In this document: positions 1 to 25,122 of the stretch, one piece after another
Position numbering within the stretch: position 1 is the first letter of the stretch
Layout: every line of letters starts with the position of its first letter
Virus record (IMG/VR): IMGVR_UViG_3300018481_000071
Coordinates: 1-25,122 of that record
Strand: one strand, 5' to 3'
Length of the DNA: 25,122 nucleotides
Source: a virus
The notes under the pieces: generated by a model
Seen by the model: only the letters and a program-made list of their open reading frames with translations
Databases searched by the model: none
Told to the model about the DNA's origin: nothing
Translations under genes and position numbers: made by a program

Positions 1-560
1 GTCCAGAGGATGACAAGCTACTTGAGGTAGCCTTCGTCCTTACGGATGACATGCTACAGATCAGAGATGAAATCAGTATCGTCATCCACCGGGACTACAT
101 TGAGTACGACAGTGCAGCCGACAAGTGGGAGCCACCCTTCGGCATCAACAAGATTGTCGTAGACATGCACAACGAGTCAGGTCTGTGGCGTGCCTGTAAC
201 AACGCACCTTCATCCTTTACCACTCGACGTGTCGAGAACCTACTGTGTGATTGGGTTGAAGCACATGGAGCCAAAGACCTACCACTGGTCGGCAACACCA
301 TTGGGTTCGACAGGAACTTCATCCGTCTCCACATGCCACGGCTACATGCGATGTTCCATTATAGGTCTTTAGACATCTCTAGTATTAAGATCGCATCTCT
401 CCTGTGGAACCCTCTCGATGCTACCGAGCAGCCACGTAACGACAAGGTACACCGTGCACTACCTGATTGCCACGATTCCATTAGGGAACTAGATGCCTAC
501 CGACGAATCATTTTCCACCACGATTTCGCCGACTTTGAAAAAGATCCTTCCGCGAGGTAG
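1..560 (+). CDS. orn: Oligoribonuclease (DEDDh 3'-5' exoribonuclease), 5'-truncated by window edge
   Basis: Orn degrades 2-5 nt RNA oligomers to mononucleotides in the cytoplasm. The open frame continues upstream of the ATG at 51 to the left edge (frame starting at base 3). Those upstream codons read like the Orn region just after the first catalytic motif (PEDDKLLEVAFVLTDD), so the ATG at 51 is internal and the true start, with the D-x-E pair, lies outside the window. Visible family signatures, in order: MHNESGL, PLVGNTIGFDRNFI (exonuclease motif II region with its Asp), HYRSLDISSIK, and HRALPDCHDSIREL, which carries the motif III His and Asp (HxAxxD). The C-terminus ends soon after the last helix, as in normal-length Orn. 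The 3' end overlaps the next gene by 68 bases. It probably salvages nucleotides from degraded host RNA; a role against dinucleotide signals is conjecture. Family assignment is secure. Confidence 0.9.
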   Translation, partial: PEDDKLLEVAFVLTDDMLQIRDEISIVIHRDYIEYDSAADKWEPPFGINKIVVDMHNESGLWRACNNAPSSFTTRRVENLLCDWVEAHGAKDLPLVGNTIGFDRNFIRLHMPRLHAMFHYRSLDISSIKIASLLWNPLDATEQPRNDKVHRALPDCHDSIRELDAYRRIIFHHDFADFEKDPSAR

Positions 561-1002
561 ATACATCTTAGGTGTGGACCCTGGCATGACGACAGGGCTC
601 TCATGGGTCGACATAGTGTCCGGGGAAGAACACTCATGGCGACACGTATCGTTTGATAGTATGGCGAGCTACTTGTGGAGTCTAGGTTACCCCGGCAAGG
701 ACAACATCGCCGCTATCGTTATTGAGGACTTCGCTTTGCTTGGAGGTAAAGCCCTTGCCCAGACAGGTAGCAAGTTCGAGACTTGTCAAGTCATCGGCAT
801 GTTCAAGCTGTGGGCTTATGGTGATGGAACATCAATCTTCATGCAGCCTCCTAGCATTAAGCCGCTTGCCCAAGGCTTTTCCGGCGTCAAGCCTAAGGGC
901 GCTCATAGTCTGTCCCATCATGTCGATGCCTTCAACCACGCCATCTACTGGCTACGAAGACAAGGACATTACCGAACCGTACTTGAAAGAGAAGGAGAAT
1001 GA
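493..1002 (+). CDS. RuvC-like Holliday junction resolvase (RNase H fold)
   Basis: A 169-aa protein with the RuvC/RNase H-like core: ILGVDPGMTTG near residues 25-35 gives the first catalytic Asp (D29), VIEDF gives an acidic residue at 79, and DAFNHA near 145-150 resembles the C-terminal D-x-x-x-H motif. Such phage enzymes cut branched DNA during recombination or before packaging. The ATG at 493 lies inside orn, but AGGGA at 483-487 is five bases upstream, which supports this start. A TTG at 535 is an alternative, which would remove about 14 poorly conserved N-terminal residues. The stop overlaps the next start as ATGA (999-1002), so the two are probably translationally coupled. The fold is clear. 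Exact specificity (Holliday junction versus other branched DNA) cannot be read from the sequence. Confidence 0.8.
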   Translation: MPTDESFSTTISPTLKKILPRGRYILGVDPGMTTGLSWVDIVSGEEHSWRHVSFDSMASYLWSLGYPGKDNIAAIVIEDFALLGGKALAQTGSKFETCQVIGMFKLWAYGDGTSIFMQPPSIKPLAQGFSGVKPKGAHSLSHHVDAFNHAIYWLRRQGHYRTVLEREGE

Positions 1003-1313
1003 CTACCACTGAACAACATCGAGCCCGCGTTAGGGAGGCAAACCTAGTTGCCGCCACCATTCATGGAGGCGTCAACGTGTACACCAAGAAGTGCTGGCAG
1101 TGTAGCTCCACCTTCCTCACCAACGAGAGCTTCGTCAACCTATGTAGTGATGACTGCCTGTCGGATTACCTCTACGACAGGGGACTTGATTGGGTACCCG
1201 AAGAGAACCCTGCCGACAGGTGGGCCATCGAGCCAGCAGGGATCATCAACAGTGACACCATCAGGGTGCTACAACAGTGGGCACGTAAGGTGCTAGCCAT
1301 GAAGCTAGACTAG
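999..1313 (+). CDS. Small Cys4 (zinc-ribbon-like) protein of unknown function
   Basis: A 104-aa protein starting in an ATGA overlap with the resolvase gene, behind a strong AGAAGGAGA ribosome-binding site. Residues 30-55 hold CWQC and CSDDC (C32, C35, C49, C53), spaced like a treble-clef or FCS/TRASH-type zinc site. The rest shows no recognised domain; a basic N-terminal helix and a C-terminal helix (VLQQWARKVLAMKL) are apparent. It is the last plus-strand gene, and its stop codon overlaps the stop of the converging whiB gene. A nucleic-acid-binding or protein-interaction role is plausible from the zinc site alone, but no function is assigned. Confidence 0.75.
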   Translation: MTTTEQHRARVREANLVAATIHGGVNVYTKKCWQCSSTFLTNESFVNLCSDDCLSDYLYDRGLDWVPEENPADRWAIEPAGIINSDTIRVLQQWARKVLAMKLD

Positions 1314-1531: not shown

Positions 1532-1553
1532 GATTCTCCCCTTAGACTGGGAA

Positions 1554-1598: not shown

Positions 1599-1603
1599 AA
1601 CCC

Positions 1604-2086
1604 TCAAACGTTTAGATGTATGCCAAACACATTGTCATTTGGATGTAACTCACGTGTGATAGGTGGACCACCTACAGACTCCATGATCTTACCTTCGCCC
1701 ACGTACACTGCCATGTGACCAACATAAACCATACCTCTCCAACCACCTTCCCATGCAACAAGGTCACCGGAGTCCAGCTCTGATACGGACACACGTGTAC
1801 CAATCACACCACCAGGGAATAGGTCTTCACCTACCTCATAGCCTATTGATTGGTACACTGCATTCACCAGAGCTGAGCATTCAATCCCTCCTGCTGTACC
1901 TGTGTTCTCGCTAGGTACACCACTCCACATCGAAGCACCGCTACCATCTACGAACCTAAGCCCTGTCGCAGAGCCAGTGTCCGCAGCATAAGGTGGGATA
2001 GGTGTAGGTATACGTGCAGGTAATCCCATTTTTACTGGGTCGATAACAGGTGCGTCCATCCCGGCATCGACAGGAGGCTGAGTCAT
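1604..2086 (-). CDS. NlpC/P60-family peptidoglycan peptidase
   Basis: A 160-aa protein. After a Pro-rich N-terminal segment (residues 1-40) comes a compact NlpC/P60 domain: GIECSALV places the catalytic Cys at 70, LDSGDLVAWEG is the usual strand before the His motif, and VGHMAVYVGEGKIMES places the catalytic His at 124. These enzymes cleave the gamma-D-Glu to diamino acid bond of wall peptides. No signal peptide or wall-binding domain is seen. The start is an ATG following TAGGAGGA. It lies directly after the lysozyme-like/M15-like hydrolase and the giant ejection-type protein, far from the holin, so a virion-associated wall-penetration role is more likely than lysis; that is inference from context. 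Confidence 0.85.
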   Translation of the reverse strand: MTQPPVDAGMDAPVIDPVKMGLPARIPTPIPPYAADTGSATGLRFVDGSGASMWSGVPSENTGTAGGIECSALVNAVYQSIGYEVGEDLFPGGVIGTRVSVSELDSGDLVAWEGGWRGMVYVGHMAVYVGEGKIMESVGGPPITRELHPNDNVFGIHLNV

Positions 2087-2094
2087 ATGTCCTC

Positions 2095-3192
2095 CTATAG
2101 GAATGAGATGTGCACATGGTCACGGTGGGCACCAGTGTCATTGTTCATGGAGGGATGAGAGTACTGAGACCAACTTCCATTCTGCCAGATGCGATCACGC
2201 CAGATGATGTACTTGGTACCATAGGCAGACGGGTTGTTGATGAACCACTGAGCAACTGAGTTGCCCTGCTGGATACCTTGTGAGGATTTGTAGTTACCGA
2301 TCATCACATCAAGGGCCTTACCCTTAGGATGATCTGAACCTGAGACAGAGCCACCTCCATATCCACCGATGTTGTTGATACCGAACGTCTTCTGAATGAA
2401 GCTTTGTGCAGCAGCTGCGTTACCTGCTAGACCACCTGAGGTAGTGGGTCCGTAGTTACCCCCATTGTAAGCAGCCTGCATGGCAGAAGGCACAGAGCTG
2501 GGGATGTACTTCGAGTAGGCACCAGTCTTATACACAGTCCATGCGTTCAACCCCTGTGACTGGTAAATGTTATAGGCAGCGATAGCAGATTGCAACGGGT
2601 CCATCGGGTTAGTAGGATACCACGGATTACCCTGATGGACTGAGTTGATCTGAAACAAGCCCTGATCTATCGTGCCATTAGGGTTACTGTGGGAGGCACC
2701 TGGGTTCCATGATGACTCAGCCATAGCAATAGCCATCATCGTAGGTAGCTGTGCCTCGGAGAATCCTGCACGACGCAGGACGTTAGCTACACCTTGAGCA
2801 CCACCACCTCCCCAGTCACCTGAGTAGCCTGACCCACCTCCACCTGCATAGTTAAGTGCACCGAAGTTAGGATCGTTCTGCCAGAAAGCCTGACCTGCTG
2901 CCGCAGCATCAGCCCTCGACTTAGCCTCGATACGTGCCCACTCTTGTTGCTTGAGTGCATCGTTACGTGCACTGACTACTGCGTCAGCCTGGATGGCACC
3001 TGTCGTAGCCTTAGCTGAGTTGCCCCTGATGGTATCGAGACGGGTGTAGTACGTGTCGTACGGCAGCTGTCCCGCCGTAGGTGAGATGGTATCTTGTGCC
3101 TGCTGGCTCTGATACCTCTGCTGTACTGCCTCGTCTGTCTTCTCCCAGGCTAGCTTATTCTTGTCACCTTCCAGAAGAGAGGGTGCTGTCAT
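2095..3192 (-). CDS. Bifunctional virion-type wall hydrolase: lysozyme-like/SLT domain plus M15-like peptidase domain
   Basis: 365 aa. Residues 1-110 are Gln/Ala-rich and probably helical; a Gly-rich linker follows (117-131). Residues 135-245 are a lysozyme-like/transglycosylase domain: MAIAMAESSWNP gives the catalytic Glu at 159, then DQGLFQIN and AAYNIY. A second linker leads to a C-terminal VanY/M15-like peptidase domain with SDHPKGKALDVM (H288, D295), YIIWRDRIW and AHRDHVHISF (H356, H359, H361), the metal-binding pattern of this group. The protein could cut both glycan and peptide. It starts in an ATGA overlap with the 1600-aa ejection-type gene, preceded by GGGAGG. Together with the following NlpC/P60 gene it is best read as wall-penetration machinery delivered with the DNA. 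Domain calls are strong; the virion location is inferred. Confidence 0.88.
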   Translation of the reverse strand: MTAPSLLEGDKNKLAWEKTDEAVQQRYQSQQAQDTISPTAGQLPYDTYYTRLDTIRGNSAKATTGAIQADAVVSARNDALKQQEWARIEAKSRADAAAAGQAFWQNDPNFGALNYAGGGGSGYSGDWGGGGAQGVANVLRRAGFSEAQLPTMMAIAMAESSWNPGASHSNPNGTIDQGLFQINSVHQGNPWYPTNPMDPLQSAIAAYNIYQSQGLNAWTVYKTGAYSKYIPSSVPSAMQAAYNGGNYGPTTSGGLAGNAAAAQSFIQKTFGINNIGGYGGGSVSGSDHPKGKALDVMIGNYKSSQGIQQGNSVAQWFINNPSAYGTKYIIWRDRIWQNGSWSQYSHPSMNNDTGAHRDHVHISFL

Positions 3193-6100
3193 TCAGACAT
3201 CCTCCCTGTCGCCACAGAAGGAAGTCCGATCCTACCCTTTTCAATCCTGTCCTTGAGCATGAGGAAGGGATCATTCTCTTCTTGATACTTCTGGTTATCC
3301 TGACGTGCGATGTTAAAGTAGCTAGCCCTATCGGTGTCCTGCATGTTGAAGGGCAGCCAGTAGTTCTGCATACTCTGGTTGAAGAAGAAGTCCTTCTCAC
3401 CCTTCTCCATAGCACGTGACTCATCGAGCTTACCACTCGACAGGAGTTCCTCAATCGAACCTGTGGCAGATATACCCGACAGGGCAGACAGCTGGTTCAG
3501 GTATGGGATACCTCTGTCGATCCACTCGCTCTGATCTGGGATATAATGTTCCTCAGCAAACAGATGATGACCCTGCTGTAGACCAATAGGAATCTTAGCG
3601 AGTGGGTTAAGCATCTCTCCAATGTTAGCAGCAACATTACCCTGCAAGACACTAGCCATTGCCTCAGTAGGTGAACCATAATCCACCATAGTACCCTGTC
3701 GGTTATCATTCGCCAGGGGGCCAAACAAACTCTTACGAAGGAAGTCAGGGTAGTAGCTACCTTCCGGGAACTTACCTTCCTCACCTGGCTCCATACCTAG
3801 CATACCCTGTAGGTTAGTGTGAACTTTCTGGATAGCAATAGGTCGTTGCGGGTTAGTAAGCGTGGTCATAAACATGGTAGGTGCAGCCTGCTTGAACCAC
3901 TGGTAGAAGGGGAAGACACGACGCATGTACTTACCCTCGAACTTCGACAGGCCGCTAGCATCCGGGTGGAACTTCAAGACACGTGTCGAGAGACTACGCA
4001 TCATAGCCTCAGCACTGTCGAACTGACCAGTCACCTTACCGTTCTGCATCAGACCAATGAGGTGTGCCAGTCTTGCGTTGTTGGAGCTAACCTCTGACAC
4101 CTTACCTGCCACCTGGATCAGAGACAGTTCATTGATGGCATCGAGAGGCTTGTTAAGCCCACCACCTGAGGCTTCGAGGATGTCCTCTAGCTTACGGTAA
4201 TCAAGCAGCATACCTGACTGGTGTGCCCACCACTCGATCTGATTGTACGAGACATCTTCTGTCTTACCGTTCTTCATCTTAACGGAGACAGCCTTACCCG
4301 TAGCCTTAGGCGGGTTCGGAGACAGGAGGGCATTGACCCTTGCCAGGTCATCCTGAACACCATCCAGGCCCTTCTTACCCTTCCACCCTGTCGTACCTCC
4401 GAGCTTACCTCCTACACGTTGAACCTCAAGTGCCTTTAAGTTGTTGGCAGGGTTCATGTACCGAGCACCATCCATGCCAGTGAAGATGCTATCACCAATG
4501 AAGTTTCTCATGTGGTGACTGACACGGAGGACAGTAGAGCTAAGCTTCCAAGCCGACAGGTAGGGGTCGATGAAGTCCTTCATCAACTTGTTGTTGAAGT
4601 TGGTGTTCTTCATAATCTCACGTGAGTACCGACCGAGCATGTCGATATGCTCAGGATGGTAGTACATGTCACGGTCCACCATATGTGACAGGTCGAAGTC
4701 CTTAGACCTAGCAATCTTCAACATGCCAGGCTGCTTCACTGCACTACCAAACTCAGCAGAGAAGTACCTGCCTACAGCTGAGTGACTTGACAACTCCATC
4801 TGTACCTGTCGGTGCTTGTTGAGGAAACCAATGGGGTCCTCAATGTTAGTGACCTCACGCCACTGCTCCGGTACCTCAAGGTGGTTATCCTTAGCCCTGT
4901 ACTCGAAGCCCACGTCATGCTTACGCATAAGCTGGTTGATAGTGTCCAGCTCGAAACCATTCCTGAATGCACTGGTGTCACCCCAAGAATTGACACCTGA
5001 ACTCATGGAGATGGTGTTCTCCATCGCAGCATTTAGGTCAGCGTATGCAGTCTTCTGAGTAGCTGATAAGCCAGCCGAACCCGACCTGTTACGCAGAGCC
5101 TCAAAAGCATAATGAACATCAAGAGGATCATGCTCTCTCAGCCTCACCATGATGTTATTGAACTGGGCCATAGTATCACCAAAGTGATTGAAAGCCTGGC
5201 GTCCGATAGGGAAGAGCTTACCCATACCATAGCCACCTGAGACAGCACCAATGATGCCATCCAGCATACGTCGGAACAGACCATCAGTGACGACACCTGG
5301 CACGTCGATCTGACGGACACCTGCCATCTGAGCACCAGTCTGGATGATCTTGACCTGCTGCCTAGCCCACCTCTGCTGCTGCTTGTTCACCTGATTGGTG
5401 TTGTTACTGGTGCGACGTGCCTTCGCCTGCTGACCAGGCTGTGAGGTCCAAGGGTTCTGTTGGCGTGAACCTCGTGCATTCATAGTAGAGTTCGTGGACT
5501 GTAGTCTGTTACTCTGCTGCACATGTCGTGCAGTCTGGATGTCAGACTCGATGACCTTCTCAGCGATACGTGCACCTGCCGTACCTGTTGCAATGGTGGC
5601 ACCGTTATCACTGGCACCACTGGCACGCGCAGCCTTACTCGCAGCGTTAGGCAGGTCAGCTACGGCAGCGAGCTTCTCACCTACGCCTACGTCAGGATCA
5701 TCGAGAGTCTTGGCAAGGTCATCACCTAACCTACCACCGACCTCCTTACCAATGGCAGAGTCACGTGTAGCGTGCTCCGCTAGGTTAGCCATAGCCTTGC
5801 TGTGCAGTGCCTCTCGCTTACCCCAAATCTCAGTGGCGTAGGTTACAGCACGCTTATCAAACGTCTGCCCTGTATGATGTGCTGCATGGATAGCCCGAAC
5901 GATCTCAGGGATAGCCTCATCAGCTGACTTGCCAGCCTGCAACAACTCGATAGACTTAGCTGCCGCCGCCATCTGTGAGCTGGGAGGAATGCTCCACTTG
6001 GAGAACTGCATCTTGTTAACGAGAGCAGGTCCCAATGCTTCGTACACATCATGGGGGTGCATAGGATAGCTTGCTCCCCCAGGTGAACTGATGTTATCGT

Positions 6101-7991
6101 AGATACCCTTAGACTCATTAGCTGCCTTGCTAGCCTTAAGGTCTTCCATGACCTTACCCTGCATGGCTACTTTCTTCTGCTTGAAGTCCATGCCATCCAG
6201 GTCAGTCCTACGTTCCTGGTTACGTACCCATGTAGTAGCCTTGTTAGTGAGAGCCCTAATCTCTTCGTACTGCTGGCTAGTTGTCCTGACTGCCGCTTCA
6301 CCTGCCTTGCGGGCAGCAGTAGGTACCACGATGGGTACCTCACCTGTGATCTTAGCTGCCGTCTCGACTAGTGTCTCACCTGTCCTGGCAGCTGTAGTCG
6401 TAACCAGATCATTCGCTACGTTGGAGACTGGAATCTTATTGCTAGCCGCAGCAAGGTCAGTAGCTACATCACCTGTTGACTCAGGCATGGAGACACGAGG
6501 CGGCGCACTTTCATCGACAGGGTGGATAACAGATGGGCGAGAGGTAACCTGCTCAGCTACTGCATCAGTGACAGCTTTCGTATCCTCCACCTTAGCTGCC
6601 GCGACGGTGACATCATCAACCCTCTTAGCCGCAGCGGCTGTGGTAGGCTCCATCATGTTCACAAGCCACTTAGGCAGAGGCTTACCTGCCATCGCCTTTA
6701 TAGCATCCTTGGTACCTTGATGCCAGTCAGTAGGAATCTTGGAGACTTCCCTGACCTCACGTTCAGAGAAAGGAGCCCTGGGTCGTGTACGTTTGACAGC
6801 CGACAGGTCAGTGACACCCTCAGCACCAGCCTGGAACCTGGACACAGGTAGACCAGCCATGATGGCTTCTTCTGGTGGCAACGGGGCCTTAGGAGCCGCA
6901 CGTTCTAGATCACCAGCACCGAACATACCTTGCTGGCCCTCTACCTTAGGCGTGACCTGAGGTCCATTGAACCCCACACCCTGCCTACCTGTCGGAGGTG
7001 CAACAAGGTTCCTGAGGTTCTCACCAATCTGGTCAAGGTCAAACGGTGCCTTAGGTCCAGTAGGTGTGAAGGCGTTGAAGTTACCGAGTCCCGAAGGTGT
7101 AGCTGCTCGTGCTCCTTGTCCAATCGTAGGCATGACACTCTGCGTAGGTACAGAACCCGCAGCACGTCTAGCCTTACCTGCCTGCATAGCCATGACAGAG
7201 TTAAGTGATCCAGGTGCACCGGCAGGTGTAGGGGCAGCACCCGGCATAGGTGAGCCCCCGCCCCTACCTCCCGTTGGCCCAGGACCAGGAGTAGGTGTGG
7301 GTGTAGTAGGTGCAGCACCACCAGTAGGTCCTCCACCTGTGGGACCTGTGTTAGGTGATGGAGGATTGGTACCACCACCAGTAGGTCCAGCACCTGGAGA
7401 AGGTGGTTGTGTCTGACGTGCGATAGCTTCGGCAGCCGTAGCCTCAGCAGGGATGACATCATCCGGGCCAAGCTCACGTACCGCAGCCTTACCCTTAGTG
7501 ATACCCTTGTAACCTGCGCTGGCACCCTTACCTAGCCAGCCAAGAGGGATGAAGTTCAGAGGGTCAGTGAACAAGTCCCAAGCTAGACCTGTTGCGAAGT
7601 CACCATCGTTGTCACTAAAGTCACCAGCAGCCGCTCTCCGCGTCTTGGAGATGTCAGCACCGCGCGTCTTGTCGATACCCGACAGGCCAGCCCACAGTGA
7701 TTCGAGAGGGTTGTCTGTGTTGGGGTCCTTATCGTAGGTGTCCTTGATAACATTGTTCAAAGCAAAGGCAGGTCGAGAGATAACGTCGAACAACCTGTCA
7801 AGGAACCCTAGTTCATCAGGTCGCTTCTCTACTGATGAGTCAAAGGTTTCGGGATTCCAGAGCGGACCCTCAGGTATATCATATCGAGGCGTCGTAGGTG
7901 AAGCACCACTAGCCCCTGTCGGAACATAGCGGCGCTCACCACTCCTACGAATAGCTTCGTTGAGTGCATCCCAATTCTGCTTTGACGCCAC
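3189..7991 (-). CDS. Giant (1600 aa) putative internal virion/DNA-ejection protein
   Basis: The largest gene here. GTG start at 7991, five bases after an AGGAG (TTAGGAGTTGAG). Visible regions: a charged N-terminus with a hydrophobic patch around residues 136-155; a Pro/Gly hinge at about 194-262 of repeated PTGGG/PSPG units; a long Ala/Thr/Lys-rich, probably helical segment; a Gln/Asn-rich basic stretch; and a C-terminal half with amphipathic helices and motifs such as FRNG, RVSHHMRNFIGDS and RRVFPFYQWFKQAAP. I recognise no enzyme domain. Length, lack of a wall-hydrolase motif of its own and position between a 529-aa coiled-coil protein and two wall hydrolases resemble the large internal/ejection proteins of podoviruses. 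It may instead be a polyvalent virion protein of another type. Its end overlaps the next start (ATGA). Confidence 0.75.
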   Translation of the reverse strand: MASKQNWDALNEAIRRSGERRYVPTGASGASPTTPRYDIPEGPLWNPETFDSSVEKRPDELGFLDRLFDVISRPAFALNNVIKDTYDKDPNTDNPLESLWAGLSGIDKTRGADISKTRRAAAGDFSDNDGDFATGLAWDLFTDPLNFIPLGWLGKGASAGYKGITKGKAAVRELGPDDVIPAEATAAEAIARQTQPPSPGAGPTGGGTNPPSPNTGPTGGGPTGGAAPTTPTPTPGPGPTGGRGGGSPMPGAAPTPAGAPGSLNSVMAMQAGKARRAAGSVPTQSVMPTIGQGARAATPSGLGNFNAFTPTGPKAPFDLDQIGENLRNLVAPPTGRQGVGFNGPQVTPKVEGQQGMFGAGDLERAAPKAPLPPEEAIMAGLPVSRFQAGAEGVTDLSAVKRTRPRAPFSEREVREVSKIPTDWHQGTKDAIKAMAGKPLPKWLVNMMEPTTAAAAKRVDDVTVAAAKVEDTKAVTDAVAEQVTSRPSVIHPVDESAPPRVSMPESTGDVATDLAAASNKIPVSNVANDLVTTTAARTGETLVETAAKITGEVPIVVPTAARKAGEAAVRTTSQQYEEIRALTNKATTWVRNQERRTDLDGMDFKQKKVAMQGKVMEDLKASKAANESKGIYDNISSPGGASYPMHPHDVYEALGPALVNKMQFSKWSIPPSSQMAAAAKSIELLQAGKSADEAIPEIVRAIHAAHHTGQTFDKRAVTYATEIWGKREALHSKAMANLAEHATRDSAIGKEVGGRLGDDLAKTLDDPDVGVGEKLAAVADLPNAASKAARASGASDNGATIATGTAGARIAEKVIESDIQTARHVQQSNRLQSTNSTMNARGSRQQNPWTSQPGQQAKARRTSNNTNQVNKQQQRWARQQVKIIQTGAQMAGVRQIDVPGVVTDGLFRRMLDGIIGAVSGGYGMGKLFPIGRQAFNHFGDTMAQFNNIMVRLREHDPLDVHYAFEALRNRSGSAGLSATQKTAYADLNAAMENTISMSSGVNSWGDTSAFRNGFELDTINQLMRKHDVGFEYRAKDNHLEVPEQWREVTNIEDPIGFLNKHRQVQMELSSHSAVGRYFSAEFGSAVKQPGMLKIARSKDFDLSHMVDRDMYYHPEHIDMLGRYSREIMKNTNFNNKLMKDFIDPYLSAWKLSSTVLRVSHHMRNFIGDSIFTGMDGARYMNPANNLKALEVQRVGGKLGGTTGWKGKKGLDGVQDDLARVNALLSPNPPKATGKAVSVKMKNGKTEDVSYNQIEWWAHQSGMLLDYRKLEDILEASGGGLNKPLDAINELSLIQVAGKVSEVSSNNARLAHLIGLMQNGKVTGQFDSAEAMMRSLSTRVLKFHPDASGLSKFEGKYMRRVFPFYQWFKQAAPTMFMTTLTNPQRPIAIQKVHTNLQGMLGMEPGEEGKFPEGSYYPDFLRKSLFGPLANDNRQGTMVDYGSPTEAMASVLQGNVAANIGEMLNPLAKIPIGLQQGHHLFAEEHYIPDQSEWIDRGIPYLNQLSALSGISATGSIEELLSSGKLDESRAMEKGEKDFFFNQSMQNYWLPFNMQDTDRASYFNIARQDNQKYQEENDPFLMLKDRIEKGRIGLPSVATGRMSE

Positions 7992-9589: not shown

Positions 9590-10512
9590 TAGCCGACCTT
9601 CTCACGTGTGATCGTCTTCTCCATACCCATCGGTACCTCACCAAGTTGGATAGCATACTTGGCAGCGATCTTATTCACAGCGTCCTGCAAGGCTGACTTG
9701 TCCGCAGCCTCCTGCTGACCTGCAAAGGCATTCATAGCCACGTTCTGAGTATCTACACTCTCATCACGACTTTTCAAGAGAGAGTTCAACCTGTCGGTAA
9801 AGTCATTGCCGATGTTAGTCTGAGACTGTGCAAACAGGCCGGACCTACCGACACCGCGACCTACGAAGTCATTCCCGTTAACGTACAGAGCCTCACCATA
9901 AGCACCCTCGTTAGGGTCAAGTGACCACACCTCATCAGAGCCAGCACCTGCTGCTAGTCCGACAGGTTCGGCAAACTTGGAAGCCTTGTCTCTCTTGAGG
10001 AAGCCCATACGTCTCTTGGCGTCACCAAACTGACGGTCATACTGGTCACGTGTCAGCTTCTGCTGTGCACCAAAGTCAGCCTTGGCACGTGCCAGGTCAG
10101 CTACCGTCTTCTGGTACTGGTCATCAGCCTTAGCATCAGGGATGACGATGGTCTCCATGACAGGTTCAGGTGCAGCCATCATGGCAGTAGCTACAGCACC
10201 ACCGCCACCACCTCCACCGCCACCTGATGAACCGCCACCTCCACCTGATGAGCCACCTCCACCACTACCAGTAGATGGTCTAGGCGCAGCCTTTGGAGCA
10301 GCAGGACGACGATCTAATGCTATGTCATTAGCTTGACGCTCAGCATCGGTATAGGTAACCTTCTTCTTACGATCCAATGCTACGTCATTAGCTTGACGCT
10401 GAGCATCAGTGTAGGTGATCTTCTTTACCGGTGCCTTAGGCATTACGAACCCAGGTCGTGGGACAGCAGGAGCCTTCCAGCCAGGCTGAGCATAGCTAGG
10501 TGCGCCTATCAT
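9589..10512 (-). CDS. Gly-rich putative virion protein with a 20-residue tandem duplication
   Basis: 307 aa. Residues 31-50 (KITYTDAQRQANDVALDRKK) are repeated with five changes at 51-70. A Ser/Gly-rich segment follows (about 80-105, long Gly runs), then a charged helical segment (about 125-175), and a C-terminal half with a predicted coiled region and GEVPMGMEKTIT near the end. No known domain was recognised. The start forms a TGATG overlap with the preceding gene. The block of low-complexity proteins between tail hub and ejection proteins suggests a structural or assembly role. Confidence 0.65.
   Translation of the reverse strand: MIGAPSYAQPGWKAPAVPRPGFVMPKAPVKKITYTDAQRQANDVALDRKKKVTYTDAERQANDIALDRRPAAPKAAPRPSTGSGGGGSSGGGGGSSGGGGGGGGGAVATAMMAAPEPVMETIVIPDAKADDQYQKTVADLARAKADFGAQQKLTRDQYDRQFGDAKRRMGFLKRDKASKFAEPVGLAAGAGSDEVWSLDPNEGAYGEALYVNGNDFVGRGVGRSGLFAQSQTNIGNDFTDRLNSLLKSRDESVDTQNVAMNAFAGQQEAADKSALQDAVNKIAAKYAIQLGEVPMGMEKTITREKVG
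10311..10426 (-). repeat. 60-bp tandem duplication within the Gly-rich gene
   Basis: Two direct copies with a 60-base period, beginning at 10311 (GATCTAATGC) and 10371 (GATCCAATGC). They encode the two 20-residue copies of the YTDA(Q/E)RQAND(V/I)ALDR unit. The copies differ at scattered positions, many silent or conservative, which indicates an old in-frame duplication maintained by selection. Confidence 0.85.
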
Positions 10513-17833: not shown

Positions 17834-19066
17834 TCAGCTTTCCGTGATGTCTTTCATCACGAAATGAGCATTGCGACGATCAGTACCCAACTCGGAGTAC
17901 TGGAACATCGTCGCCGCATAGGCGTCCTTGATGGTACCTGCGACAGAACCTGGGACACGATCCCACATGCTGCCGTCGTAATCCATCCAGTCCCAATCAG
18001 CATCACGGTAGAGCCGAATGTTAGGCTCCGACAGGCCGTAGATGGTGTTGAACGGGCAGTCGATGTCCGCCACCATCGGGACCTCACCCTGATCTGTCGT
18101 GAAGACCAGACCGGAGTAGCCACCTGTGAACTCCTTGACGTTGGAGAACCTACGTGCCTGGACAAGCAGGTTCCAGAACGCACGCTGCACACCAAGGGAA
18201 CTCACCAGAAGTGTCGTCTTACCACCGTTGTTACGTACCGCGTGAACGTTACGCATCATGGCAGACTCAGACAACGGCCGGTTGGTTCCACCGTTAGCAT
18301 CAACGATGGACTTCCAGATTGGGTAGGTGGCAGGATCGACACCATACAAGATGCCCGAGTTGTTGACGATAGCCTTGAGGCCCGTCCACTCACGGTTGGC
18401 GCTACCTGTCCGAACGAACACGTCACCAGCCGCAAAGGTGACGGAGTTCGCAGCCAGCACCACAGCACCTGTCTGAGGATCAACAGACGTGACCGTGACA
18501 GGTGAGCCAGCCTTAGCTGCACCATCAGCCGCAAGGGTAGCCGGGACGTACACGTCCAGGAGTTCACCTGCCTGCAACTGCTGCACACCTGCGGTGATGG
18601 TAGGTGTCGTGCTGGCACCCACCGTAGAGGTGGTAGCGATGGCACCTGTACCGTCACCATAAATCTGACGGTTAAGGTCCTTCGCAAGGTCATCCTTGAG
18701 ACCATTCATCTCAAGGTCCAGACCTGCAACGAACGTCTGCGGGTCCTTGTTGGCAAGCCGCAGGGTCTGACCAGTCAGCTGCACCGAACCGTACAGGTAC
18801 TTGAGCCGCACCTGTGCCGGGGCAGTTCCCTGGTTACCAGCAATCGGCAGGTTCTCACCTTCACGACGACCACCGAGACCTGTGTTTCGAGAAACGTGAA
18901 TCGGGAAGACACAGTACTTGCCACCCACGTTGGAAGAGATGACGCTTCCTCCACCGTTACGAGCGATGCGCTTGAGAAGCACAACCTCGTTATTGAACTG
19001 CTCTCGCAGCTTACCGTCGTACACTTCCTTTAGCACACCCGTAAGGGTGGCAAGACTTGCTGGCAC
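17834..19066 (-). CDS. Major capsid protein (HK97-like fold)
   Basis: 410 aa from a GTG at 19066 that has a perfect GGAGG five bases upstream; an in-frame TTG at 19087 would overlap the scaffold gene and is less likely. The sequence has the HK97-type order: N-terminal helix (LKEVYDGKLREQFNNEVVLLKRI), an E-loop/beta region with many Gly (GRREGENLPIAGNQGTAPAQVRLKYLYGSVQLTGQTL), the spine helix (DPQTFVAGLDLEMNGLKDDLAKDLNRQIYGDGTG), the A-domain core and C-terminal strands. It directly follows the scaffold-like gene. No protease gene is seen between portal and capsid, so assembly probably uses the scaffold without processing. Codon use looks more GC-rich than in neighbouring genes, consistent with high expression; this was judged by eye. 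Confidence 0.9.
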   Translation of the reverse strand: MPASLATLTGVLKEVYDGKLREQFNNEVVLLKRIARNGGGSVISSNVGGKYCVFPIHVSRNTGLGGRREGENLPIAGNQGTAPAQVRLKYLYGSVQLTGQTLRLANKDPQTFVAGLDLEMNGLKDDLAKDLNRQIYGDGTGAIATTSTVGASTTPTITAGVQQLQAGELLDVYVPATLAADGAAKAGSPVTVTSVDPQTGAVVLAANSVTFAAGDVFVRTGSANREWTGLKAIVNNSGILYGVDPATYPIWKSIVDANGGTNRPLSESAMMRNVHAVRNNGGKTTLLVSSLGVQRAFWNLLVQARRFSNVKEFTGGYSGLVFTTDQGEVPMVADIDCPFNTIYGLSEPNIRLYRDADWDWMDYDGSMWDRVPGSVAGTIKDAYAATMFQYSELGTDRRNAHFVMKDITES

Positions 19067-19067
19067 G

Positions 19068-19976
19068 TTAACCTCCAGAGTTAACAAACTTCAACATTTG
19101 TACCAGGTGTGCTTGACGTTCCTCTTCATTCATCTTACTGACAGGCTTCTCGGTGGTAGGTGCCACTGAACCTGACGGTGGAAGGATGTTAGGTGCCTGT
19201 CGCCCCTGGTTTTGGGCTTGGTACATTCGCTGGAAGACAGCCTTCTGTTCCTCAAAGGCAGCATTGGCATCAAGCTGCTTGCCTTGATTGACCTGGTTAA
19301 ACATACGTCCCAGGACATCCTGCACGTCTACCGCTGGGCCAAACTTGTCCACCAACCCCTGGACCTGCTTGTCGATCTGTTGCTGGTAGGTGTCAACCTT
19401 TTGGTTGTACTGCTGCTGCTGGACATACTCGTCCATCTGAGCTTGACGTTGCAAGAGATCATATTGCTGTTGTTCCAACTGAGCAAGATAAGGGTCCTTG
19501 TCCAGACCTTGCTCATCAGGGTCCTGCTGATCCTGTAGCTGACCTGTCTGTTGCAGATGGTTGTACAGAGACTGATAGACCTTCATCGGGTCCGACTGAA
19601 TCTGCTGCAACAGGTTAAGGCCGTAACCTAGAGCCTGAGGGTCCACACCTGAATAGGCTTCATATGGCTTGTACTTACCCTCAAGCTCCTGATACTTCGT
19701 TTCGAGTCCACGGTAGTTATCATCCCACGACCTCAGCTGCTTCTTGAGAGGTGCGTGAAAGACTTCCGGTACACCTTCAAGGAAAGGTGCCCATGCGGGG
19801 TTGTCTGCCTGGTTTGTGCCTGACACCTGCTGGGTCTGTCCCTGAGGTTCAGAGACAGGAGTGCTATCGGTGGCTGGGCTGAAGGCTTCTTTACCACCTG
19901 AACTAACAGATGCGAAGTCTTCTACAGTAATGCCAGGTCCTGAATCACCAGACGACCCACTATCGAACTCGGACAT
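19068..19976 (-). CDS. Capsid scaffold protein
   Basis: 302 aa, acidic and Gln-rich. Residues 1-65 are Ser/Gly/Pro-rich and disordered; then a coiled-coil region (WDDNYRGLETKYQELEGKY), and a very Gln-rich helical segment (about 145-215). A C-terminal portion with a basic end (VSKMNEEERQAHLVQMLKFVNSGG) resembles the coat-binding helix-turn of scaffolds. It sits immediately upstream of the major capsid gene with one base between them, the usual place. ATG at 19976 behind TTAGGAAG. Function by position and composition. Confidence 0.85.
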   Translation of the reverse strand: MSEFDSGSSGDSGPGITVEDFASVSSGGKEAFSPATDSTPVSEPQGQTQQVSGTNQADNPAWAPFLEGVPEVFHAPLKKQLRSWDDNYRGLETKYQELEGKYKPYEAYSGVDPQALGYGLNLLQQIQSDPMKVYQSLYNHLQQTGQLQDQQDPDEQGLDKDPYLAQLEQQQYDLLQRQAQMDEYVQQQQYNQKVDTYQQQIDKQVQGLVDKFGPAVDVQDVLGRMFNQVNQGKQLDANAAFEEQKAVFQRMYQAQNQGRQAPNILPPSGSVAPTTEKPVSKMNEEERQAHLVQMLKFVNSGG

Positions 19977-20299: not shown

Positions 20300-22510
20300 T
20301 TACATACCCATACCTGGCGGCATACCTGGCGGCATACCTTCTTGTCCCCCTCCTGGGGGTGGAGGTGGTCCCCCTCCTGGGGGAGGTGCGCCACCTGGCG
20401 GTTGACCTTCCATACCCGGAGGACCTTGTGAGGGATCGCCTGACATACCCATTGATCCTGGAGGTGCACCCTGCTGAGCAGCACCCATCATGGGATTAAG
20501 CATGGCAGCATAAGCACGCATCTCATGTAGCTTGATATGCTTAGCGAACTGATCCTGAACCATAGGATCGAGCATCTCAAACTCTTGAGACTTACGGTAG
20601 TTGTTATGAGTGGTGATGTGCACCTGATGGTTGTCCCACTCGTTCACCTTCACCATAGGTGGATAGGTGTTCGCGTTAACAGGATCAATAACAGGTAGTC
20701 CGGTGTTGGGATCACGTGACCCTTCACCACCGACAGCTGCGTTCTCCATCTGTTCGATATTGAACTGCTGCAACTGCTCAGGTGTGATCTTCTTCATGCG
20801 CAGGTTCTCACGTTGCGCACATCTCATGTCAATACGCATCCTGTCGACCAGGACGTTAACCGAGCCCATCTCCATCATATCCAGCATCTGTTGTGCTGTG
20901 ATGGCTCCCGACTGGAACAGGTCCATCAAGAAAGCCTGACGTGCAGACTTGCTCATAGGTAGAGATGAGCCCGGCTCAACACGCACGTCTAGCCCATTGG
21001 CAATGTCACTGCCTTTGAGCGCGAAGCTGTCAAATGCGCGGTCCATGCCAGCCACACGGATGATCCGGGGGACATCCCAGAAGTCCACTACAAGTGATAG
21101 CGCGTGACGTGCGATCTTAGTGATGGCCTGTTCCATTGACGACATGGTTGTCGCCAGCATCGACTCGTCCTTCTCTTGAAGGTACGCAATCGCAGTTGCT
21201 GCAACAACACCTTGTCCGGGTGCCATACCACGTGATACTTGATGTTGGCCCGCGACATCTTCAATGTCCGAGATAATACGACCGAGTTCTTCGAGCACAT
21301 AATTAGGTATGGGTGTGAGAGGAAGTGGCTCTGGTTTACCCAACGCGGGCTTATAGAATACAAGCTTACCCGGTTCAGAGGTGTACTTTGACGGGTCCAT
21401 TGTTCCAATGGGCACCAACAGTTGTGGCCGCGCCATACGGTTCTTGGACTCGATAATCTGATTACGAGTCTTGTTGTACTCGACTTGAAGTGGATTGGTG
21501 TCATTAAGCGTAGAATCGGCATAGAACTTGCCATTCATCCGATCCTTAATGTGCGAGTAAGGGTACTCGTCATGTGTGTAGGGCATACCCTCCACAAAGT
21601 TGACCATCTTGTCACCTACGATGGTAACCAACCCACCATTAGGCAGCAGAGGACATGAGCCTGACTTCACATAGGCTTCAATTAGCAGCACTGAGTCAGG
21701 CTTGGCAATGTTACTACCAGTGCTCTGGAAGTAAGCTGACTCGAAGATTTCGGTCTTAGCTACAGAGGTAGCCTCGAAATCTTGCTTAAAGCGCTGACGT
21801 GCCCACTCGATAGGCTTGGTATAAGCCTCGAACATATGAGGCTGGTTCTCGATGTCCTCTTCGAGCAGGTCAGGAAAGAACAGGTTATAAGGCGTGACGA
21901 CACCAAAGGACACGTTACCTGTCGTAGGTAGACCCATGACAGTCTTAAGCTGCCTGTCGATGAAGTCCTTGTCGTACCATGTCTTGAGGAAACCATTACC
22001 AGTGACACAGCACCAGAACGCCATACGTTCCAGTTTCCACTGGAGGTTGTTGTGCATGTAGAGAAACTCCCAGACAGCCTCGCCTGACTGGGCAGCAAAC
22101 AGGTCATCATCTTCACCGGAGGCAGGTACAACCGTTACAGTTGGTTTCTGTGTTGTCATCCTGGTGACGTTAGTCATCACGAGGGGACGGGTACGGTTGG
22201 TGATACTACGTTCACGGTGGCGAGGCGAAGGTGGCGTGCCAATCTTGGCAATGCCACTCTGACCTGTGAGTTCCTGGATGTACTGGTTACCTGCATACAT
22301 TTGCAGGTTGATGTCCCAGGTACGACGGACACGTTGCCTGTCCGTCTTCATCTTGTCGTAGTTCTCCTTGACCCACGACACTAACCTGGCTTGATCCTTC
22401 TCAGAAGGTAACTTAGGCTTCTCCGTTGACTTCTGCTCTAATCCGTTCAAACTCGGCTGTTGAGAGGTCGCCTGAGAAGTTGGTGGCAGCATCATAGATG
22501 GGGCTGTCAT
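20300..22510 (-). CDS. Portal protein (podoviral type), Pro/Gly-rich C-terminus
   Basis: 736 aa, the size of P22-like portals. The core reads as portal: RVRRTWDINLQMYAGNQYIQ near 60-78, NRTRPLVMTNVTRMTTQKPTVTVVPAS, the wing and stem region (WKLERMAFWCCVTGNGFLKTWYDKD... PYNLFFPD), and the long helix around VEYNKTRNQIIESKNRM. The last 60 residues are a Pro/Gly/Met low-complexity tail (PPGMEGQPPGG...PPGMPPGMGM), encoded by short CCTGGCGG-type repeats at about 20310-20400. The portal forms the dodecameric DNA channel. ATG at 22510 with GAGG seven bases upstream; the first 98 bases overlap another ORF in a different frame, so a later start (for example the GTG encoding Val in LVSWVKE) cannot be excluded. 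Confidence 0.88.
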   Translation of the reverse strand: MTAPSMMLPPTSQATSQQPSLNGLEQKSTEKPKLPSEKDQARLVSWVKENYDKMKTDRQRVRRTWDINLQMYAGNQYIQELTGQSGIAKIGTPPSPRHRERSITNRTRPLVMTNVTRMTTQKPTVTVVPASGEDDDLFAAQSGEAVWEFLYMHNNLQWKLERMAFWCCVTGNGFLKTWYDKDFIDRQLKTVMGLPTTGNVSFGVVTPYNLFFPDLLEEDIENQPHMFEAYTKPIEWARQRFKQDFEATSVAKTEIFESAYFQSTGSNIAKPDSVLLIEAYVKSGSCPLLPNGGLVTIVGDKMVNFVEGMPYTHDEYPYSHIKDRMNGKFYADSTLNDTNPLQVEYNKTRNQIIESKNRMARPQLLVPIGTMDPSKYTSEPGKLVFYKPALGKPEPLPLTPIPNYVLEELGRIISDIEDVAGQHQVSRGMAPGQGVVAATAIAYLQEKDESMLATTMSSMEQAITKIARHALSLVVDFWDVPRIIRVAGMDRAFDSFALKGSDIANGLDVRVEPGSSLPMSKSARQAFLMDLFQSGAITAQQMLDMMEMGSVNVLVDRMRIDMRCAQRENLRMKKITPEQLQQFNIEQMENAAVGGEGSRDPNTGLPVIDPVNANTYPPMVKVNEWDNHQVHITTHNNYRKSQEFEMLDPMVQDQFAKHIKLHEMRAYAAMLNPMMGAAQQGAPPGSMGMSGDPSQGPPGMEGQPPGGAPPPGGGPPPPPGGGQEGMPPGMPPGMGM

Positions 22511-22617: not shown

Positions 22618-23049
22618 TTAACCGACAGGAGGTCTACCGAGTGTCTCAACAACGATATTAGCTCCGACGTGTTCCGGGTGCTCTTCTGTTGGAAATAGAG
22701 TATCAACCACAGGCTCAACAGTGAGGTTGCGAACACGATGGACATAAGTATCAACAGCTGCCACCAAACCACTTTGCAGGTCCTCCATTGCATCTACAGC
22801 CATAGCAAGCTGTCGCTTCATCGTGTCGTTCTCTTCCATCAACCTCACAGCGTCAGACCTACGCATGAGATCAAGCTCCGGTACATGTACCGATTCCAAG
22901 ATACATTCAGTGCAAATAAGCAACGTGCCGAAGTAGTCAATGTCGATATGGAAGTCGATGCAAGGTCTACGACTGGAACCACAAATGGCACAGCTACCCG
23001 GAAAGGGAAGATGCTCTACCTGAATGAAATGAAACCTGTCGCTACTCAT
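22618..23049 (-). CDS. Cys4 zinc-finger-like plus coiled-coil protein (143 aa)
   Basis: The ATG at 23049 overlaps the terminase stop by eight bases and has GGGAG seven bases upstream; an ATG at 23070 lies further inside terminase without comparable support. Residues 20-50 contain CAIC and CTEC (C20, C23, C46, C49; C30 also present), a probable zinc knuckle. Residues 60-110 form a heptad-rich helix (MRRSDAVRLMEENDTMKRQLAMAVDAMEDLQ). The C-terminal end is acidic with His. Placed between terminase and portal, it might help connect the packaging motor or regulate it; this is inference. Confidence 0.7.
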   Translation of the reverse strand: MSSDRFHFIQVEHLPFPGSCAICGSSRRPCIDFHIDIDYFGTLLICTECILESVHVPELDLMRRSDAVRLMEENDTMKRQLAMAVDAMEDLQSGLVAAVDTYVHRVRNLTVEPVVDTLFPTEEHPEHVGANIVVETLGRPPVG

Positions 23050-24607
23050 ATTCAAACTCCCTAAGATCATACCCTACAGTGATGTTCCATGTAGATGAAT
23101 CAGAATCACGTGACGCTGCGGGACCAAACTTATCAATGTAATCCCATATGGTACCAACGTCACTAACATCTAGAGTGTGTTCTGACCTTGGAGAGATGTC
23201 AAGACCCTGTGCTGATAGTTCAGGTAAGAAGGTGAAGAAGTACCTCAGAGCATCAGGTGCGTGGTCATCCTTCTTATGGATAGTCTCACGTGAGTTGTTG
23301 GAGTCCTCTAGCTTAGGACTAGTATAGTAGTCCCAGTGTAGTGCCTTCATCTCACGAATCATGTTCTGGCAACCTAACGTACACTGCCAATAAGGCATAC
23401 CAGTCTGAGGATTATGATGCAGATAAGTGTTAATTCTATCGACACCTATGCTCACATTCTTAGGTACCGAATCCAGAGAGAAGTATATGCCACCTTCTGC
23501 ATATAGGGTCTGAATCGAATTACCGGACTGAGCCTGTCGCTGCTTCATAGCAGGGTCACCAGTCCTGAGGAACACATCAATGTCGTTATCTAGTTCCCAC
23601 TGAACAAACTCAGCTGCCCAGTCCTTAACGATCTTCTCACGTCCATAGAACTCCTTGAACGTAACTACAGAACCACCATCAGGACTGACAGCATGATATA
23701 GACCAGCAGTAGGATTGTTGTACCCATGATCGAGGCTATGATAAATAAGCCAATCACGAGGCGGACGCCATCCAGCACTGAGCGTGCCGTGGACACTAGC
23801 CATGAAGTCTGGGAATACGAGCCCACCTCTGGGAACAAACTTTCCATGTTCGCGCTTAGCTCTTTCATCATCATCCAAGAAAGCTAGAGCGGTCATCTTC
23901 TCTGAAACCGACAGGTAAGGATTGTCAGCCATGTCGACTTCGATGATAGCCAGGTCCTCTTTGGTACCTGACTTCCCTGGCAGGTAAAGGGTGTTATATG
24001 TCCAGGTCAGACCCTGGACAGGGGTCATGGTGATCCATACTGAACCACCTACGTCAATGGTACGAATCAGGTTTTCTTCAAAGATTCGTCTAGGTGGTTC
24101 CTCATCGAAGTGTATAAAGTCACGAGACGTTCCTGCGTGCTTGTCGAGGTCTTGATCGTAGGATTTGAAGTCGATCTCATTGCCGTTTGCCAAAGTGAGG
24201 GTGCGTTCTGAGAGGGACCATGACCGTTCCCATGAACCGTCAATAAGGTCACTCGGTACGATCCATCGCTTGAAGATAGGCAGGAGTATACCCTGTACTC
24301 CGTTGATGAAATCAACCCCAAGAACGCGACCGTGGATTCTTTTGTCGGGAATCTTACGGTATGGGTGTCTACCCGTAACCCACCACAAATCTTCAACAAC
24401 GCCGCCAACCGACTTGCCTGACCTGTTCCCTCCAATGTACAACCTTACTGTCTTGTCAGCTTCGTGAAAGAGACGTTGCTTGGTATGTGGCTGGTAAGCG
24501 TGCATATTCGGTTCATTAGCCTGATTCTTAAACGCCTTAGCTAATGACTGAATCATCTCCAACTTATCAGGAGGTTCTTCATCTTCTTTCTTACGGCGTG
24601 GTGGCAT
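23042..24607 (-). CDS. terL: Terminase large subunit
   Basis: 521 aa with an ATPase then a nuclease domain. Walker A is GGNRSGKS at 59-66, Walker B is FIHFDEE at 164-170 (catalytic Glu included), and the coupling-type motif WITMTPVQG lies at 191-199. The RNase H-fold nuclease shows LDHGYNNPTA (D293), TGDPAM (D351) and KKDDHAPDALRYF (D448/D452 area). It pumps DNA through the portal and cuts the concatemer. An N-terminal charged stretch (PPRRKKEDEEPPDK) precedes the domain. It overlaps the preceding ORF by 17 bases. No small terminase subunit is recognised in the window; one may lie just beyond the right edge. Confidence 0.95.
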   Translation of the reverse strand: MPPRRKKEDEEPPDKLEMIQSLAKAFKNQANEPNMHAYQPHTKQRLFHEADKTVRLYIGGNRSGKSVGGVVEDLWWVTGRHPYRKIPDKRIHGRVLGVDFINGVQGILLPIFKRWIVPSDLIDGSWERSWSLSERTLTLANGNEIDFKSYDQDLDKHAGTSRDFIHFDEEPPRRIFEENLIRTIDVGGSVWITMTPVQGLTWTYNTLYLPGKSGTKEDLAIIEVDMADNPYLSVSEKMTALAFLDDDERAKREHGKFVPRGGLVFPDFMASVHGTLSAGWRPPRDWLIYHSLDHGYNNPTAGLYHAVSPDGGSVVTFKEFYGREKIVKDWAAEFVQWELDNDIDVFLRTGDPAMKQRQAQSGNSIQTLYAEGGIYFSLDSVPKNVSIGVDRINTYLHHNPQTGMPYWQCTLGCQNMIREMKALHWDYYTSPKLEDSNNSRETIHKKDDHAPDALRYFFTFLPELSAQGLDISPRSEHTLDVSDVGTIWDYIDKFGPAASRDSDSSTWNITVGYDLREFEYE

Positions 24608-24914
24608 TGATGATTCCCAACTTGGTCAACTCGTTCAGTAGTTGGTTCATAATGTCATTCATGTTGTTAGTTCGGGAACCACTGATAGTACTCGACAGGA
24701 GGACGTTACTGGTGGTGCCATCATGCACATGTCCACCTTCACACGCCTGGTTACGACCTTTACCTAAGGTGTGGTGCTGAGCCTCAGGACGTGAGTCCGA
24801 GTCACTCTGTCGATGAAAAGCCAAGACCGTTCTGGCATCAGCCGTTTTCAGATCAACAGGTTTATCTGTCGACTTAGGACCACCTCCGACAGGAGGTGCC
24901 TCAGTATTATTCAT
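24591..24914 (-). CDS. Small protein with HxLGxGxxQAxxGxHxHDG-type motif
   Basis: 107 aa. The central segment QHHTLGKGRNQACEGGHVHDG (about 45-66) matches a motif common in actinophage virion proteins, in which His residues and a terminal HDG may bind metal. The N-terminal 40 residues are Pro/Lys/Asp-rich and disordered-looking; the C-terminus is a helix (NDIMNQLLNELTKLGI). ATG at 24914 overlaps the preceding stop (ATGA), and the 3' end overlaps terL by 17 bases. No DNA-binding helix-turn-helix is visible, so it is not called as small terminase. Role unknown. Confidence 0.65.
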   Translation of the reverse strand: MNNTEAPPVGGGPKSTDKPVDLKTADARTVLAFHRQSDSDSRPEAQHHTLGKGRNQACEGGHVHDGTTSNVLLSSTISGSRTNNMNDIMNQLLNELTKLGIINATTP

Positions 24915-25122
24915 ACCATCGGCCTTACCACCGAGATAAACACAGATGAAAGCATACTCAACTGATTCGTAGGTGCATAGTTCTGAAAGATACCAACTAC
25001 CCAGTCCCCGACATTAAACGGTCTGATATACTGGACATTGAGGCATGTAGCAGTAGGATTGGTCTGTAGTCTATTCTCCATGTGTGTGTAATCAGCACCG
25101 TTAATCATAAGTGACCCACAGA
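24911..25122 (-). CDS. Hypothetical protein, probably 5'-truncated at the right edge
   Basis: The frame is open to the window end: four more codons precede the ATG at 25108. That ATG has only a weak GGG upstream, so the real start probably lies outside. The visible part (about 65-69 aa) has a beta-rich look (LNVQYIRPFNVGDWVVGIFQNYAP...VFISVVRPMV). Its stop overlaps the next start as ATGA, so it belongs to the same operon. No family recognised. If the ATG at 25108 is used, it would be a 65-aa protein. Confidence 0.5.
   Translation of the reverse strand, partial: CGSLMINGADYTHMENRLQTNPTATCLNVQYIRPFNVGDWVVGIFQNYAPTNQLSMLSSVFISVVRPMV

Follow-up and report, generated by a model that had tools for sequence, protein, structure and literature searches.

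The window analysed here is the whole of a 25,122-nucleotide stretch of viral DNA (IMG/VR record IMGVR_UViG_3300018481_000071), along which one short word, CGACAGG on one strand or CCTGTCG on the other, recurs with unusual frequency. Is this excess a by-product of the proteins and codons that the DNA encodes, or does it belong to the DNA itself and, in the latter case, which molecule reads the word?

A heptamer over-represented at the DNA level

Exact counting over the 25,122 bases yielded 45 copies, as stated in the original prediction. The 24 copies on the plus strand (CGACAGG) are exact matches at positions 308..314, 590..596, 1175..1181, 1214..1220, 2068..2074, 3438..3444, 3477..3483, 3945..3951, 4554..4560, 6515..6521, 6801..6807, 7680..7686, 8477..8483, 9960..9966, 12253..12259, 13080..13086, 14975..14981, 17536..17542, 17551..17557, 18029..18035, 22623..22629, 23909..23915, 24693..24699 and 24887..24893. 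The 21 copies on the minus strand, which appear as CCTGTCG when the plus strand is read, are equally exact and lie at 1157..1163, 1962..1968, 2999..3005, 3205..3211, 3695..3701, 4387..4393, 4805..4811, 6988..6994, 7915..7921, 9790..9796, 11034..11040, 11566..11572, 13530..13536, 14150..14156, 14834..14840, 19196..19202, 20840..20846, 21918..21924, 21953..21959, 23035..23041 and 23533..23539. Those starting at 17536 and 17551 form a tandem 15-bp pair. The positions quoted earlier were correct, except for 13529, which is actually 13530, and the sparse stretch that had been pointed out between 15.0 and 17.5 kb is ordinary, since in 67% of trials with randomly placed copies the largest gap was no wider than this one. 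Base composition predicts 3.3 copies, close to the approximately three announced in advance, a first-order Markov model 3.5 and a second-order model 4.7–4.8. The reversed word, used as a control, occurs 3 times, and words composed of the same letters have ~2.8 copies on average. CGACAGG/CCTGTCG is the commonest 7-mer of the window (the runner-up has 29 copies) and each of its one-letter neighbours has at most 11. The preceding base is C in 18 and T in 16 of the 45 copies, which bears out the preference for these two bases noted before.

At least 39 of the 45 copies are in coding sequence, 19 in sense and 20 in antisense orientation, and all three frames as well as both orientations are represented, in keeping with the several reading frames already reported. 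The companion remark that copies occur in genes of both strands offers weak support because nearly all genes of the window are on the minus strand. A codon, dipeptide or mutational bias devoid of any function would fit the marked compositional preferences of phage genes and the mostly coding location of the words. However, synonymous shuffling within genes produced 5.8 ± 2.2 copies (maximum 13 in 500 shuffles, well short of 30) and a shuffle also preserving junction dinucleotides 5.3 ± 2.0 (maximum 10 in 60), against the 39 observed in coding sequence. Codon-preserving nulls likewise gave two to five times fewer copies than observed in 13 genomes and ~40 times fewer in Microbacterium phage Shocker, a genome of 63% GC whose AT-rich word is more than 100-fold enriched, and one-letter neighbours remain near background. 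A functionless bias retains practically no probability, and the part that the original prediction had conceded to codon or dipeptide bias is excluded by the codon-preserving nulls. With 39 copies where nulls that preserve proteins and codons give 5–6, with every frame represented and with sense and antisense nearly balanced, the over-representation is a real, DNA-level feature, and the proposal of a role at that level is supported.

Familiar regulatory repeats were rejected as candidates. Actinophage stoperators and start-associated or intergenic repeats do not fit copies that are coding in at least 39 of 45 cases, as frequent in sense as in antisense and devoid of a -10 partner. The Shocker word, CTTTACAG, resembles the promoter -35 element TTGACA; here too there is no -10 partner, and sense equals antisense.

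Each phage lineage has its own word

The genes of the window constitute a structural module (terminase, P22/SU10-like portal, SU10-like capsid protein, tail and lysis). The window holds this module alone and ends before the replication genes, the primase gene discussed below being outside the contig. The major capsid protein gene (17834..19087, minus strand; phrog_14242, E=1.3e-115; SU10_MCP) served as query for finding relatives. Four of them (G001–G004), with capsid proteins 78–88% identical to that of the window, use the same word CGACAGG, with 19 copies in 18.8 kb, 30 in 23.6 kb, 58 in 39.7 kb and 65 in 35.7 kb, respectively. Arthrobacter podophages, Brad and Jasmine among them, have capsid proteins 46% identical to that of the window, and the word in excess in Jasmine is CCACAG (101 vs 16). 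It is CGACAG in Cellulosimicrobium phage DS1 (116 vs 28), CTACAG in ctEqG8 (98 vs 28) and TTTACAG in both Shocker (45 vs 0.3, the preceding base being always C) and G007 (31 vs 0.5), the latter two having CTTTACAG as their word. Shocker-like phages have two words. The comparison with related phages advised in the original prediction thus reveals enrichment in the relatives, each with its own word and all with one common skeleton.

Lineage-specific words could in principle track the host, through a site for host recombination, methylation or a nucleoid protein, as HIP1 does in cyanobacteria. Nevertheless, the words of Jasmine and Shocker are not enriched in six unrelated phages of the same hosts, namely Gordon, Galaxy and PrincessTrina for Arthrobacter sp. 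ATCC 21022, the host of Jasmine, and Burro, ValentiniPuff and Jacko for M. paraoxydans NRRL B-14843, the host of Shocker. Conversely, the related word CCACAC is common to phages of six different host genera (Serratia, Pseudomonas, Yersinia, Gordonia, Mycobacterium and Microbacterium). A HIP1-like host word was also rejected, CGACAGG being non-palindromic and the words, as judged from phage genomes, not tracking the host. A determination by the host is therefore very improbable, and the six phages without the words show that the determinant is carried by the phage lineage.

Association of the words with a primase gene

The replication genes common to the lineage encode a primase–helicase, DNA polymerase I, a PD-(D/E)XK nuclease, an AAA ATPase and a SNF2 helicase. 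Searching a phage collection with the Shocker primase–helicase retrieved phages with very different virions, namely Serratia phage Serbin, Pseudomonas phages Lebethron and Almagne, Gordonia phages GTE2 and BigChungus and Microbacterium phage Sansa, and CCACAC/GTGTGG, or the longer GGCCACAC, is among the leading over-represented words of these siphophages. Scans with the primase of Serbin alone or of ctEqG8 alone returned no matches.

We gathered 80 viral loci by primase homology alone, ranked the hexamers of the 54 that reach at least 10 kb and scored, for each, the best-ranked member of the CNACAS class (8 hexamers among 2080). It ranked first in 17 of the 54 loci, among the top three in 25 and among the top ten in 39, against a top-ten position in 2 of 71 phages from two control groups lacking the primase. 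Because primase loci are related, they were dereplicated at 60% primase identity; 29 of the remaining 39 had a CNACAS hexamer in the top ten, compared with 2 of 42 arbitrary viral contigs chosen by an unrelated 14-mer (Fisher p = 4e-11). About a quarter of the primase-bearing loci have no top-ten CNACAS word. Some of these loci display a longer or shifted variant, such as CGCTACAG in L107, and others are unexplained. For four further primase-bearing phages, a prediction on hexamer rank, with a codon-null observed/expected (O/E) cut-off of 2, was recorded before the sequences were fetched. The rank prediction held in three, Yersinia phage P744 (rank 2), Mycobacterium phage Muddy (rank 1) and Brevundimonas phage Strzyga (rank 7, with a codon-null O/E of 1.9, slightly below the preset value). 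In Schubert, the hexamer ranked 27th and the top 7-mers were GGCCACA (51 vs 8.0) and GCCACAC (34 vs 7.1). Another locus, L116, whose primase domain is 76% identical to that of G003, has 27 copies of CCTGTCG vs 2.0. The word is thus associated with the phrog_3123 primase gene.

Co-occurrence alone cannot single out the primase, because it usually comes as a set with DNA polymerase I, PD-(D/E)XK nuclease, AAA/Sak4-like ATPase and helicase. In particular, the words might be Chi-like signals recognised by the PD-(D/E)XK (Cas4/RecB-like) nuclease that the phage encodes and its AAA/Sak4-like partner, by which phage DNA would be protected or recombined, and they would differ by lineage as Chi does among bacteria. 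Most members examined do have this nuclease and ATPase alongside the primase, and Chi words, 5–8 nt long, show over-representation in those phages that depend on them (PMC3784561). However, Streptomyces phage Hiyaa, found via its nuclease homologue (E=2e-6), also has DNA polymerase I and a recombinase together with a different primase (Prim-Pol, PF09250), and no CNACAS word is enriched in its genome. Burro and ArMaWen, which carry other Cas4-like nucleases, are likewise without the word, as are the phages of the same hosts mentioned above. Lambdoid Chi reaches ~0.2 copies per kb with a median O/E near 2.3 (PMC3784561), compared with 1.8 per kb and an O/E near 9.5 for CGACAGG here, and a Chi-like function would leave the match to known primase sites described below without reason. 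We thus regard this reading as unlikely, although less so than the other alternatives.

The co-travelling of the entire replication module would also suit some other DNA signal attached to replication or packaging, such as polymerase loading, a packaging site or a site for an Lsr2-like nucleoid protein, and Jasmine does encode Lsr2-like proteins. Yet, among the genomes compared, the Lsr2 match is limited to Jasmine, capsids and tails differ among the podo-, sipho- and myoviruses that have the common skeleton, and the T·GTNG layout of the words (the dot marks the junction between the T and the motif) is specific to priming by archaeo-eukaryotic primases (AEP). Signals of this sort appear quite improbable. 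The primase is singled out because the word agrees with known AEP sites, because of the identity of the protein and because of the contrast provided by Hiyaa.

A predicted fusion of RepB'-like primase and RepA-like helicase

The primase protein belongs to phrog_3123, listed as "unknown function" in PHROGs. Profile searches matched its N-terminal part to RepB_primase (PF16793) in several members. When the N-terminus of the G003 protein was modelled with AlphaFold (pLDDT 89.5), Foldseek matched it to RSF1010 RepB' (3h20, E=8.7e-12), with the PrimPol of cyanophage S-2L as second structural match. The C-terminal part matches RSF1010 RepA (1g8y, E=3e-15). These profile and structural matches identify the modelled protein as a RepB'-like AEP primase joined to a RepA-like helicase. 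A T7-like primase, our first idea, was dropped, the protein being an AEP and not a TOPRIM primase. The G003 contig carries both this primase gene and a capsid gene whose product is 78% identical to that of the window, from which we infer that the phage of the window probably carries the primase gene too. We also looked for covariation between word bases and primase residues; the top column corresponds to Shocker Y289, in the presumed helix-bundle domain, but the signal is spread and confounded by relatedness, and no conclusion was drawn from it.

The words resemble AEP priming sites

Written on the template strand, the words are 5'-CCTGTCG in the window, CTGTGG, CCTGTAG (with a CTGTAG core), CTGTAAAG and GTGTGG, and all lineages examined have the skeleton 5'-(C/G)T·GT-N-G-3'. 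For the primase–helicase of G003 or Jasmine, the predicted template words are 5'-CCTGTCGG-3' or 5'-CCTGTGGG-3'. A single-substitution scan showed strict positions for C or G, T, G, T, a lineage-specific N, and G, with weaker preferences for C before and G after the core; the count falls close to background as soon as any one base of the core template 5'-(S)TGTNG-3' is altered. All words have a T of the initiating type directly 5' of the GT-containing motif, and this T is strict. The third motif letter varies, with GTGG in Jasmine and the CCACAC phages, GTCG in the window, GTAG in ctEqG8 and GTAAAG in Shocker.

In the AEP primases studied biochemically, the helix-bundle domain binds a template GTG, and ATP, placed opposite the base that immediately precedes this triplet on its 5' side, starts the synthesis (PMC11009956; PMC8076596). 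On the pRN1 template 5'-CT·GTG-3', ATP pairs with T and dGTP with C (PMC11009956), and priming is lost when GTG is replaced with CTG (PMC8076596). The NrS-1 primase prefers 5'-GTGG/GTGA-3' and also uses an 8-nt site, 5'-TTTGGTTA-3' (PMC8718748), and GTG has been proposed as the start site in RSF1010 ssiA (PMC4434180). By this comparison, the words match the layout of AEP primase sites, with a third motif letter that varies by lineage. CGACAGG/CCTGTCG is most probably the site that a phage-encoded primase, a RepB'-like AEP enzyme fused to a RepA-like helicase, recognises and at which it starts. Among the functions listed in the original prediction, a replication signal is thereby retained, and a Chi-like element, a packaging signal or a host-protein site is not favoured.

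If so, the primase would bind and prime at the word, and lagging-strand initiation would be the purpose of the sites. The helix-bundle domain would read 5'-GTCG-3' on the single-stranded template exposed during phage replication, and the catalytic domain would begin the primer opposite the T that immediately precedes this motif on its 5' side, such that a template 5'-CCT·GTCG(G)-3' would lead to a primer starting with pppA-G-G. The CGACAG hexamer occurs ~1.1 times per kb on each strand, which would offer a priming chance about every kilobase, at the scale of Okazaki fragments.

Turnover of sites and maintenance of their density

The density of the best word is ~0.5–1.6 per kb per strand in primase-bearing genomes of 40–63% GC, and after codon correction the two strands show the same enrichment. 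A strand bias marking a replication origin was accordingly discarded, as the plus/minus imbalance of the siphophages vanishes with this correction. Regular spacing was not retained either, gaps being mostly as random, with fewer short gaps than expected by chance in G004 and GTE2 only. In pairwise comparisons with relatives, 4 of 14, 5 of 21, 1 of 10 and 4 of 15 window sites were kept, small numbers that do not exceed those of random 7-mers. Individual sites thus turn over at a neutral rate and the density is retained, which is what selection on density, and not on position, would leave. Such selection would act everywhere, coding or not, regardless of exact positions, and we propose that it favours a high density, chance occurrences of a hexamer being too infrequent. 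Whenever the specificity of the primase shifted in a lineage, the word would shift too.

By extension, it seems likely that podo-, sipho- and myoviruses with the phrog_3123 RepB'–RepA fusion, infecting many hosts, have had their whole genomes rewritten around the word of their own primase. The word would therefore report the specificity of the enzyme without experiment, making it readable from genome sequence alone, and each change of specificity (GTGG, GTCG, GTAG, GTAAAG) would have required that new sites arise by the dozen throughout the genes. A frequent phage word that lacked an explanation becomes a testable enzyme–site pair, in which the joint evolution of one enzyme and its dozens of dispersed sites can be tested directly, and a function is proposed for a family without known function in PHROGs that is often annotated as "RecA-like recombinase". 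Searches of an open-access library, with few subscription journals in it, turned up no earlier account of phage genomes enriched in primase sites in this way.

Comparison with known systems

Lambdoid Chi resembles the present case as a short over-represented word of phage genomes tied to a DNA-processing enzyme (PMC3784561). It is read by a host enzyme and has lower density and enrichment, whereas the word studied here is not common to the phages of one host. The sites of T7 gp4, 5'-(G/T)2GTC-3', are also short, spread over the phage genome and used for lagging-strand priming (PMC12839067). By contrast, gp4 is a TOPRIM primase of unrelated fold and its site is shorter than the words described here. 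We know of no lineage-specific words for T7 gp4 primase sites.

AEP systems are closer. RSF1010 RepB' and RepA provide the closest structural (3h20, 3h25) and helicase (1g8y) matches, but they are separate proteins acting at one 40-nt site per strand, whereas the phage proteins are predicted to be fused and to have dozens to more than 100 short scattered sites. NrS-1 PrimPol is likewise a phage-encoded AEP primase, with the GTGG/GTGA preference described above. Genome-wide over-representation of its site is not reported in the accessible part of its description (PMC8718748), unlike in the phages studied here. Its structural similarity to the G003 primase model is weak, and the NrS-1 enzyme doubles as replicative polymerase, whereas our phages have a separate family A polymerase. 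The pRN1 primase (ORF904) is likewise an AEP enzyme, and its site, with GTG as recognition triplet, an ATP start opposite the T directly 5' of it and C as next base (primer A-G), has the same order as 5'-CT·GTGG of Jasmine and 5'-CCT·GTCG of the window. The pRN1 motif has 3 nt and belongs to an archaeal plasmid; known AEP sites in general span 3–5 nt (NrS-1 also using its 8-mer), whereas the sites deduced here would have 6–8 strict positions and recur genome-wide at ~1 per kb per strand.

Repeat and gene contexts of single copies

Two of the 45 CGACAGG copies in the window derive from a perfect tandem duplication, CGACAGGAGGTGGAT repeated twice at positions 17536-17565, which lies within a gene matching glycoside hydrolase family 5 (GH5) cellulases (16625-17827, minus strand; PF00150, E=3e-5). 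This gene is flanked by the capsid gene and by an M15 peptidase/peptidoglycan-binding endolysin gene (15615-16481), and its product is possibly a tail-associated enzyme. The copy at 24887 is held in an inverted repeat, CACCTCC-GACA-GGAGGTG (24881-24898), a possible hairpin close to the start of a minus-strand gene (24591-24914).

Primases and iterated words in other phages

In GenBank, the proteins of phrog_3123, the primase-helicase family (records L093-L097, L099, L282 and similar), are often labeled "RecA-like DNA recombinase" or "DNA recombinase"; judged by their domain content, members annotated as recombinases are primase-helicases.

Microbacterium phage Shocker has two iterated words, CTTTACAG and CGACAGGG. 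The former occurs in 45 copies against about 0.3 expected (expectation for TTTACAG), 13 of them intergenic, versus an intergenic share of only 5% of the genome. TACCCTAA, intergenic in 13 of its 15 occurrences, is probably a separate regulatory element. Other words are strongly over-represented in two of the unrelated same-host phages, namely CCTCGAG (90 versus 14) and ACTCGGGG (28 versus 1.5) in Arthrobacter phage Galaxy, and the palindrome CTGCAG (72 versus 17) in Microbacterium phage ValentiniPuff.

Curtobacterium phage Nonagon and Clavibacter phage CMP1 encode a distant relative of the primase fused to a DUF3987 domain. Their leading 7-mers, AGCACAG (29 versus 5.7) and AGGCACA (22 versus 4.4), read as templates 5'-CT|GTGCT and 5'-T|GTGCCT. 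GTG again directly follows the T in both, and these words suggest that the T-then-GTG rule would extend to other types of AEP primase. Streptomyces phage Hiyaa, with a primase of the Prim-Pol/PriCT_1 type, is enriched in CCGCCACC (47 versus 9.2), whose complement, GGTGGCGG, includes GTGG; this might be a further word of the primase type.
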